Source of the DNA: Candidatus Thorarchaeota archaeon
Lineage (GTDB): Archaea; Asgardarchaeota; Thorarchaeia; Thorarchaeales; Thorarchaeaceae
Length of the DNA: 44,318 nucleotides
Assembly (NCBI GenBank): GCA_019894665.1
Contig: JAGXOC010000003.1
Coordinates: forward strand, 29,158 to 73,475
Direction: 5' to 3'
The notes under the pieces were generated by a model, which worked only from the letters and a program-made list of their open reading frames with translations, was not told the origin of the DNA and did no database searches. The translations under genes were made by a program, and so were the position numbers. Below, piece after piece: positions 10,133 to 11,783 of the stretch (within the stretch, counting starts at the first letter, position 1; each line of letters starts with the position of its first letter).

Positions 10133-10504
10133 TCAGCAGCCGCAGTCATCGCCCTCTATGACAATGACCTTCACCTTGACATCTTCTGCAATGTCGCCAA
10201 AGGCTTGAAGGAAATATCTGGAGGCTTCTGCCAATCCTTTCTCACCTTCAGGTGTCAGGTTGTAAACGATCTGTCTACCTTCCTTGCGCCCTTCAATATG
10301 CCCTCCATTCTTTAATTCTTTCAATGCAGGATAGATTGTGCCAGGGGTTGGTTTTGTTCCTCGTCTTTTTGCTATCTTCTCTGCTATCTCTTGCCCATTC
10401 AATTCTTCTTTGTCAAGTTCCCATAAGATTTGAAATGTGAGAAATCCTCTCATATCACAACAGTCAGGAGGACAGCAGGGTGCAGACTCTGAGGGGTCGG
10501 ACAT
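10133..10504 (-). CDS. PadR-family transcriptional regulator with N- and C-terminal Cys clusters
   Basis: MRGFLTFQILWELDKEELNGQEIAEKIAKRRGTKPTPGTIYPALKELKNGGHIEGRKEGRQIVYNLTPEGEKGL is a PadR wHTH. CCPPDCC at N-terminus and DDCGC at C-terminus. ORF opens at 10552; Met at 10504 fits better, leaving an operator-like repeat upstream. Confidence 0.9.
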   Translation of the reverse strand: MSDPSESAPCCPPDCCDMRGFLTFQILWELDKEELNGQEIAEKIAKRRGTKPTPGTIYPALKELKNGGHIEGRKEGRQIVYNLTPEGEKGLAEASRYFLQAFGDIAEDVKVKVIVIEGDDCGC

Positions 10505-10510
10505 ACTAAA

Positions 10511-10526
10511 TATTGGATGCCCTATA
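10511..10526. promoter_or_regulatory. Operator-like palindrome copy 1 (TATTGGATGCCCTATA)
   Basis: Imperfect inverted repeat just upstream of the PadR start; matches two other copies in the divergent promoter. Confidence 0.6.
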
Positions 10527-10587
10527 GCAAATAAAACCTTTCTCAACTGCATTTTTCAAATTTTATATTCTTTCTCTGAAAGAAAAC

Positions 10588-10607
10588 CTTATATTGGACA
10601 TCCAATA
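10588..10607 (+). promoter_or_regulatory. TATA-like element overlapped by operator-like palindrome copy 2 (TATTGGACATCCAATA, 10592-10607)
   Basis: AAAACCTTATATTGG fits a BRE/TATA arrangement; perfect 7-bp arms TATTGGA/TCCAATA with 2-nt spacer. Confidence 0.65.
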
Positions 10608-10618
10608 ATCAAATGATG

Positions 10619-10634
10619 TATTGGACACCCGATA
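10619..10634. promoter_or_regulatory. Operator-like palindrome copy 3 (TATTGGACACCCGATA)
   Basis: Third copy of TATTGGAYRYCCNATA, 27 bp start-to-start from copy 2 and near the expected TSS. Confidence 0.6.
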
Positions 10635-10648
10635 CAGATGGCGATTGA

Positions 10649-10792
10649 ATGACCGAAGAGAATATTGTTACTGAAGCGGTTTCGAAATGTAGAATCTCTT
10701 GTACAACAACATCTGGAAGATCATGTCAATCAACATCATGTGGTGGCGATGAATATCCGAATTATAACCCAATGAAAACGGTGATTGCATGA
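10649..10792 (+). CDS. 47-aa Cys/Ser/Thr-rich small protein (unannotated micro-ORF)
   Basis: MTEENIVTEAVSKCRISCTTTSGRSCQSTSCGGDEYPNYNPMKTVIA; first ORF after the operator/TATA; stop overlaps the next start as ATGA. Confidence 0.5.
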   Translation: MTEENIVTEAVSKCRISCTTTSGRSCQSTSCGGDEYPNYNPMKTVIA

Positions 10793-11153
10793 CAGAAACT
10801 AAAAAAGTAAGTGAAATGGAATCTGATGAGATCAAGGAAGCAGTAAGGAAAACTTACTCGAAAGTAGCAAAGAGAGATGCGGGCCGCGGTGATGAACCAG
10901 ATCAGACCTCTTCAAGTTGTTGCGGGCAACCAGCAACCAAGTCACAAGAATAAATCTTCTAGTGATATAATGTAAAGAAAATGGTGATTGAATGACAGAA
11001 ATGAAAAAGGTCAGTGAAATGGAACCTGATGAGATTAAGGAAGCAGTAAGGAAAACTTACTCTAAAGTGGCAGAGAGAGATACGAGTTGCTGTGATCAAC
11101 CAGCTCAAACTTCCTCAAGTTGTTGCGGACCAACAGAAGCTAAAGTCACAACA
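10779..11153 (+). repeat. Imperfect tandem duplication of the arsM 5' region (units about 10779-10950 and 10982-11153)
   Basis: Both units begin GGTGATTGMATGACAGAAA and encode MTExKKVSEMExDEIKEAVRKTYSKVAxRD...QTSSSCCG; start-to-start offset 203 bp. Confidence 0.85.
10789..10953 (+). CDS. 54-aa orphan copy of the ArsM N-terminal Cys region
   Basis: MTETKKVSEMESDEIKEAVRKTYSKVAKRDAGRGDEPDQTSSSCCGQPATKSQE ends in TAA; closely matches ArsM residues 1-50 encoded downstream. Confidence 0.55.
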   Translation: MTETKKVSEMESDEIKEAVRKTYSKVAKRDAGRGDEPDQTSSSCCGQPATKSQE

Positions 11154-11783
11154 GTGAATATTGCAGAGGCTCTGGGCTATGACACTGAAGGAATGCCTGT
11201 TTCCGCCACGGAATCATTTGCCGGTTGCGGAAATCCTGTTGCACTAGCGAGTTTGAAAGAGGGTGAAGTTGTGCTTGACCTCGGAAGTGGTGCTGGTCTT
11301 GATATGTTCGTGGCAAGCAAGAAAGTCGGTGAGACTGGGAAAGTTATTGGCGTTGATATGACTCCTGCTATGATTGAGAAGGCAAAGAAAAACGCCGAAG
11401 AGCTCGGTATTACAAATGTGGACTTTCGCTTTGGTGACATTGAGGACATGCCCGTCGATGACAATTCAGTTGATGTAGTGATCAGCAATTGTGTCATCAA
11501 TTTAGCTCCAAACAAGGCTAAGGTCTTCCAGGAAGCCTACCGGGTTCTGAAACCTGGTGGTCGAGTTATGGTGTCAGATATCGTTCTCTCCAAAACATTG
11601 CCAAAGGAAGTTAGTGATGAGGTTGTTACCTACACTGGTTGCATTGGTGGTGCCATACTTGATGAGGAGTACTTGCAACATATGCGAGATGCTGGTTTTG
11701 AAAACGTTGAGATAACCAGCAAAGCTGGCGAGAGTTTACACGGGGCTTACAGCGCTTATGTTGCAGGCCGAAAGCCTGAGTAA
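10992..11783 (+). CDS. arsM: Arsenite S-adenosylmethionine methyltransferase (ArsM-type)
   Basis: N-terminal SCC/SSSCCG; SAM motif VLDLGSGAGLD; SNCVINLAPNKAKVFQEAYRVLKPGGRVMVSDIV; YTGCIGGA containing a conserved ArsM-type cysteine. Confidence 0.92.
   Translation: MTEMKKVSEMEPDEIKEAVRKTYSKVAERDTSCCDQPAQTSSSCCGPTEAKVTTVNIAEALGYDTEGMPVSATESFAGCGNPVALASLKEGEVVLDLGSGAGLDMFVASKKVGETGKVIGVDMTPAMIEKAKKNAEELGITNVDFRFGDIEDMPVDDNSVDVVISNCVINLAPNKAKVFQEAYRVLKPGGRVMVSDIVLSKTLPKEVSDEVVTYTGCIGGAILDEEYLQHMRDAGFENVEITSKAGESLHGAYSAYVAGRKPE

Follow-up and report, generated by a model that had tools for sequence, protein, structure and literature searches.

Arsenic-responsive transcription is nearly always ascribed to repressors of the ArsR/SmtB family. 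What, then, does a PadR-family regulator sense and control when its gene lies divergent from arsM, the gene for an arsenite methyltransferase, with a set of palindromes between the two? This arrangement occurs in a 44,318-nucleotide stretch of a Candidatus Thorarchaeota genome, the whole of which is referred to here as the window; a TATA-binding protein gene also adjoins the locus. Family, gene pairing, operator conservation, operator–regulator co-occurrence, regulon membership by operator and cysteine conservation were all read from sequence, and from these we infer DNA binding by the window PadR, repression, the ligand and the release mechanism, arsenic sensing included. The regulator and its operators form a real, conserved and apparently undescribed system, which together with its regulon is backed as strongly as a comparison of genomes permits, and it is reasonably likely that PadR is a one-component repressor that senses a trivalent arsenical and controls arsenic methylation. 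The open-access literature, a body that leaves most subscription journals aside, yielded no description of a PadR protein in connection with arsM or arsenic.

The regulator is a protein of 123 aa encoded on the reverse strand (10133..10504, with the stop codon at 10133-10135). Its start codon is the ATG at 10504, which is preferred because ortholog starts fall about 10 residues ahead of the CC motif. The longest ORF given by the ORF finder would begin at 10552, a start ruled out by the ortholog starts and by the operator position, since operator O1 would then fall within padR. By every test made, the protein belongs to the PadR family and not to ArsR. The PF03551 PadR profile scores 41.7 bits against a gathering cut-off of 27, and the AF2 model (pLDDT 84.9) consists of a wHTH and a long C-terminal helix, with helices at residues 18-32, 37-48 and 54-66, two strands, and a last helix at 85-119. 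The top Foldseek matches and the profile matches in the PDB are PadR proteins, the solved neighbours being TA0346 (3elk), H. salinarum RosR (6ez1/6qfd), M. tuberculosis Rv3488 (5zhc) and LmrR. In the NCBIfam search no equivalog exceeded its cut-off, the Rv3488 family (NF053635) reaching 27.4 bits against 140. As for ArsR/SmtB, the Pfam HTH_5 profiles (PF01022/PF12840) gave no match, the ArsR model NF033788 scored 23.6 bits against a cut-off of 55, the ELCVCDL-type metal motif is absent, and the stretch between residues 17 and 120 is free of Cys.

Three exact copies of a 16-bp palindrome lie between padR and the arsM operon, at the positions given in the first-pass annotation. O1 (TATTGGATGCCCTATA, 10511..10526) is situated 6 bp upstream of the padR start codon, O2 (TATTGGACATCCAATA, 10592..10607, an exact match on both strands) overlaps the TATA-like CTTATATT of the arsM promoter, and O3 (TATTGGACACCCGATA, 10619..10634) occurs near the expected arsM transcription start, so that the copies are spaced by 81 and 27 bp; none is assigned to a strand. 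The TATA element in O2 was assigned by inspection and the arsM start site from archaeal promoter spacing, a sigma-70 promoter scan being uninformative for an archaeon. With two or fewer mismatches allowed, 4 places in the window gave 7 strand-matches, where 0.43 would be expected; with one mismatch or none, 6 places in the window genome gave 12 strand-matches, and a reversed control pattern gave 0. Refinement on 180 sites gave the nearly symmetric consensus TATTGGRYRYCCRATA.

The first-pass annotation had proposed a search for the same sequence upstream of padR/arsM pairs in related genomes. Whether or not they are ArsM-linked, all 80 PadR loci have at least one operator in the 150 nt before padR, a match at 13 or more of the 16 positions being counted as an operator, as against 45/5832 control windows (0.8%) in the same loci. 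The commonest distance from operator to padR start is 6-7 bp, copies favour a spacing of 30 bp (mostly in Thorarchaeota) or about 40 bp (mostly in Bathyarchaeota), and a TTTAAAT-type TATA element commonly lies between them. Among 99 Asgard genomes, the exact operator was found in 36/39 with the regulator and in 3/60 without it (Fisher p=6e-20, a value that overstates the evidence because related genomes are not independent). Of these three PadR-less genomes, G070 and G077 have their matches inside ORFs, where they look like chance. In the third (G092, 74% complete), the operator is upstream of an old-yellow-enzyme-like gene, and padR may be missing there through incompleteness.

The pairing with arsM is also widespread. 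A protein search of the 99 Asgard genomes gave 39 PadR orthologs at E<1e-36, the next match being at 3e-10, and arsM is divergent at 38 of them. The odd one out is G025, where arsM, the operators and the first CC pair have all disappeared, whereas G035, of the same genus, retains an intact set; the joint loss looks like a single deletion that left a padR remnant (L150:5554-5883). A pattern-guided scan with one genome per species, overlapping the 39 Asgard genomes, brought together the 80 loci, which span Thorarchaeota, Hermodarchaeota, Bathyarchaeota, Methanomethylicota, Methanosarcinales/Methanocellales, Methanoperedens, Thermoplasmata, Micrarchaeota and Pacearchaeota, with a divergent arsM at 67. 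Because CCDMRG was among the two patterns of that scan, a profile search of Bathyarchaeia was added. Its matches break at E=1e-48 and then at 1e-25, and 16 members of the top group were fetched; CCDMRG and operators are present in every one of them, and arsM in 15. Across loci, identity to the window PadR correlates with identity to the window ArsM (Spearman 0.80), which is consistent with the two proteins travelling together. The Asgard, cross-phylum and Bathyarchaeia sets rule out a single-genome oddity. The first-pass annotation would have abandoned its reading had orthologs lacked the Cys clusters or the operators; the orthologs were searched for such losses, and the reading was not refuted.

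Some of these loci have further neighbours. Downstream of padR, Thermoplasmata and related Euryarchaeota have a thioredoxin-like gene (L107, L108 and L113, with TTCPFC in L113) whose product is likely a reductant partner of ArsM. Sister PadR clades with a related operator (Micrarchaeota, Pacearchaeota and some Bathyarchaeia) are divergent from a gene for a small Cys-headed protein that ends in RNFLTKEEKIEKLKGYKEWLDNESKGVEEAIEKIK and has no Pfam match (L196:1778-2002 on the reverse strand; L198:1493-1735). Similar N-termini occur at L087, L111, L115 and L118.

On the other side of the operators, ArsM itself (263 aa, 10992..11783, forward strand) scores 320.6 bits with the arsenite S-adenosylmethionine methyltransferase model NF008823, whose curated cut-off is 263. 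The catalytic residues C79, C167 and C217 are kept in 64/66, 64/64 and 64/64 linked homologs, respectively. One correction to the first-pass annotation is that two forward-strand ORFs separate O3 from arsM. The first after O3 encodes 47 aa with 4 Cys (10649..10792), and its stop overlaps the next ATG (ATGA); the second (54 aa, 10789..10953) resembles the first 46 residues of ArsM at 80% identity and is a shortened duplicate. ORFs similar to the first, of 39-53 aa with 2-5 Cys, occur between operator and arsM at 13/24 Thorarchaeota loci in the L040-L063 series (L040, L042-L051, L059 and L061). They change fast and could encode an arsenic-binding peptide or a coupled leader. The duplicated ArsM N-terminus, which bears an SSSCCG motif, is also found upstream of full-length arsM in G011 (L006:1131-1280).

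If PadR does bind a metalloid, its cysteines are the obvious place to look, and the first-pass annotation had suggested a metal site in the clusters at the two ends of the protein. Both motifs read as claimed: CCPPDCC is residues 10-16 (codons 10457..10477, reverse strand), directly ahead of helix 1 (residues 18-32 in the AF2 model), and DDCGC is residues 119-123 (10136..10150, reverse strand). The N-terminal half of that suggestion is borne out by conservation. Cys15-Cys16 is kept in 39/39 Asgard orthologs, which were found by BLAST and not selected by pattern; all 39 have CCDMRG, and 38 have both CC pairs. The same pair is present in 81/81 aligned PadR members, a count that is biased because CCDMRG was one of the two search patterns, and the Cys10/11 columns are filled in 64-65 of the 81. 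The C-terminal half, on the other hand, did not hold up. DDCGC is lineage-specific, its cluster being confined to part of the Thorarchaeota; the proteins of L056, L069 and L071 have no Cys at the C-terminus, and Cys121/123 occur in 23-24 of the 81 members, a frequency that rules the motif out as a general metal site. It is probably dispensable for PadR.

The number of N-terminal cysteines follows the presence of arsM. At least three precede MRG in 66/68 ArsM-linked members, and the two exceptions (L091 and L100) carry Cys95 and Cys99 instead, both within the last helix, positions that hold Cys in 35/81 and 30/81 members. Among members without arsM, at least three N-terminal Cys are found in 5/13, and the presence of the full cluster in these five counts against an arsenical reading. 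An AsS3 site requires three or more cysteines, and the four at the N-terminus of the window PadR could supply them. In the AF2 model the cluster is placed directly ahead of helix 1, the N-terminal residues being of low confidence, as for a flexible tail. In a Bathyarchaeia sister clade that has a related operator but lacks arsM, the Cys are mostly C-terminal (SCC, CCC). Within one fold with one operator, the Cys site appears to have shifted among the N-terminus, the dimer helix and the C-terminus.

The means by which such a protein could regulate arsM can be proposed as follows. A PadR homodimer would sit on each 16-bp palindrome and block padR and arsM, thereby combining autorepression with repression of arsM; both promoters would be blocked because the operators adjoin the padR start and cover the TATA box and start region of arsM. 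Once a trivalent arsenical entered or arose in the cell, as As(III) or as methylarsenite made by ArsM, it would be captured by the Cys cluster ahead of helix 1 (CC-x3-CC in the window PadR). The captured arsenical would distort helix 1 and the dimer, and the repressor would leave the DNA. Release would induce arsM together with a small regulon comprising a nitroreductase with a flavin reductase, a 115-aa protein and sometimes a DUF2284 protein.

This regulon was recognized by its operators. Beyond the padR/arsM locus, the window genome has three further sites: two precede a nitroreductase gene, which is followed by a flavin reductase-like gene (contig C58), and one precedes the gene for a 115-aa CxxC protein (C111). 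When orthologs were fetched by protein alone, an operator was found directly upstream in 10/10 cases for the nitroreductase and 6/6 for the 115-aa protein, and several of these had been missed by the earlier exact operator search. In two Hermodarchaeota genomes (L033 and L036), the genes for flavin reductase, ArsM, PadR and nitroreductase are contiguous, both promoters bearing operators. One Bathyarchaeote lacks arsM next to its padR, and a flavin reductase gene elsewhere bears an operator pair (L175). One genome has an operator before a DUF2284 gene (L130), and DUF2284 is fused to ArsM in NCBIfam NF041536. The 115-aa protein, which has a CDGC motif and matches nothing in Pfam or NCBIfam, is encoded at L132:3054-3401, L127:1989-2336 (reverse strand) and L212-L215.

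The presence of flavoenzymes in the regulon would also suit a sensor of thiol redox state or of electrophiles, in which disulfides or adducts at the vicinal Cys release the repressor and ArsM belongs, alongside nitroreductase and flavin reductase, to a general regulon for thiol stress. Methanoperedens has an FMN reductase gene divergent from padR, and an FAD/NAD(P) oxidoreductase gene adjoins padR in Methanocellales; both cases favour this explanation. Nevertheless, we regard it as unlikely, albeit the strongest of the alternatives, as arsM is the dominant partner (38/39 and 67/80 loci) and most hosts are presumably anaerobes. The third and fourth Cys, moreover, are kept mainly in ArsM-linked members, a pattern that trigonal As(III) fits better than a two-Cys disulfide. 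A halobacterial PadR protein, RosR, does act in oxidative stress, but it has no cysteine at all and therefore offers no model for a Cys switch (PMC4287449).

A plain As(III) sensor might be expected to govern efflux as well. Joint control of efflux and methylation is common in As(III) repressors, although not strictly required, and it was not seen here: when the acr3 and ArsP loci of the same genomes were searched for a PadR operator, nothing emerged beyond one weak site each at L217 and L238, and control of arsenite efflux by the same operator was rejected for these loci. A canonical ArsR is often found beside acr3 in PadR-bearing genomes, the window genome included. There, an ArsR with an EQCQCDIF motif is encoded close to a piece of acr3 where a contig ends (L256:1524-1838, G000:C23). 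With acr3 standing apart, often beside its own ArsR, two regulatory branches seem to coexist. The lack of PadR operators at acr3, taken with the flavoenzyme regulon, raises the possibility that PadR answers to a methylated form of arsenic, to some other soft metalloid or to thiol/redox state. Efflux could be left to ArsR because PadR prefers methylarsenite or another soft species, or because PadR serves thiol stress, which the flavoenzymes also fit.

The separate control of acr3 lends some weight to a sensor for a different soft metal or metalloid (Sb, Bi, Cd, Hg, Te or Se species), with the ArsM-like enzyme methylating that element or the regulator answering to it. Rv3488, a fold neighbour of the window PadR, is a Cd-binding PadR protein. 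Rather improbable in our estimation, this explanation is weakened by ArsM itself, which scores above the cut-off for arsenite methyltransferases and in which all three catalytic Cys are conserved. It does draw support from arsM loci without PadR. Twelve Asgard genomes have ArsM (E<=1e-60) and no such PadR, and at these arsM loci the candidate regulator is an HgcC-type AbrB in 7, an ArsR in 1 and a MarR with CCC in 1, with none obvious in 2 and a contig end in 1. Three of the HgcC calls were above the NCBIfam cut-off (NF040962) and the rest were made by evident similarity. The HgcC family was named for its association with mercury-methylation genes (PMC10349881). The HgcC-type proteins at arsM, which bear GCC and CC motifs, are encoded directly upstream of it (L141:2511-2801, L143:2545-2835, L145:2534-2815, L144, L148, L260 and L261) and may be another type of arsenic-responsive regulator. 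The MarR-family gene, with an SACCCSPST motif in its product, adjoins arsM at L146:3349-3828 (reverse strand, G098). That Cys-bearing regulators of differing folds take the same place at arsM counts in favour of the arsenical reading and would support a thiol-binding ligand for all of them.

The Cys cluster might instead be a structural Zn or Fe-S site, with an organic ligand bound in the dimer pore as in LmrR or the phenolic-acid PadR proteins. A metal could be bound constitutively by four Cys that fall within a span of seven residues, and PadR proteins classically bind aromatic ligands. However, vicinal CC pairs would be an unusual geometry for Zn, the first pair drifts in spacing and is missing from several members of the 81-member alignment, and the partner genes encode metalloid and flavin enzymes, not aromatic-acid enzymes, all of which makes this explanation improbable. 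That padR and arsM adjoin by chance, next to unrelated palindromes, is scarcely credible, as nothing supports it and it is contradicted by the conservation of pair and operator across phyla, the operator counts in the window, the genome and the 80/80 loci, operator–regulator co-occurrence and the regulon ortholog test.

Taking the arsenical-sensing reading as the best available, we lean slightly towards a broader view, in which this is a family of arsenical-sensing repressors that uses the PadR fold, is independent of ArsR/SmtB and is either ancient or widely transferred in archaea. Such a family would have its own operator across Asgard, TACK, Euryarchaeota and DPANN lineages and a mobile Cys site, and would control methylation and flavoenzymes, As(III) efflux in that cell being the task of ArsR. 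If so, PadR would be a second fold for arsenic-responsive transcription, and the known ways of sensing arsenic would be extended by one whose operator and regulon can be read across most archaeal phyla. It would also give a first handle on the control of arsenic methylation in uncultured sediment archaea, Asgards included, and the PadR/operator pair would be a ready reporter part. Regulator–operator pairs kept over such distances are uncommon, and this one provides a context for otherwise unannotated genes, namely that of the 115-aa CxxC protein and the nitroreductase/flavin reductase pair.

How does this regulator compare with known systems? It shares the wHTH and long C-terminal helix of TA0346, RosR, Rv3488 and LmrR, its solved neighbours in the small PadR subfamily, and differs from them in having an N-terminal Cys cluster, a divergent arsM and its own operator, TATTGGRYRYCCRATA, where that of RosR is TCGnCGACGAGnTCGnCGAC. 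A parallel is offered by E. coli NfeR (YqjI), a Ni/Fe-sensing PadR protein with an N-terminal metal-binding extension that is encoded divergently from the flavin reductase gene yqjH. NfeR and the window PadR have in common an N-terminal extension, putatively metal-binding in the window PadR, and a divergent target gene, and with NfeR and Rv3488 alike the likeness is one of a PadR core with a function linked to metals, a putative one in the window PadR. The extension of NfeR, however, is a His-rich tail in place of a CC-x3-CC cluster, and the predicted target in the window is arsM. HgcC, known from archaeal hgcAB loci, is likewise a small Cys-bearing candidate regulator and takes the place of PadR beside arsM in other Asgard lineages, but its AbrB/MazE fold is unrelated. 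The ArsR/SmtB proteins are similar as small dimeric winged-helix repressors with a palindromic operator beside ars genes, yet the window PadR has neither an ArsR profile match nor ELCVCDL, and true ArsRs stand beside acr3 in the same genomes. The As(III) sites of ArsR proteins consist of three Cys at helix ends, that of CgArsR being Cys15, Cys16 and Cys55' (PMC11868830). This type 3 ArsR and the window PadR each have two vicinal Cys close to where helix 1 begins, a likeness that is positional only. As an arsenic sensor, PadR would be a new variant of the one-component metalloid repressors.
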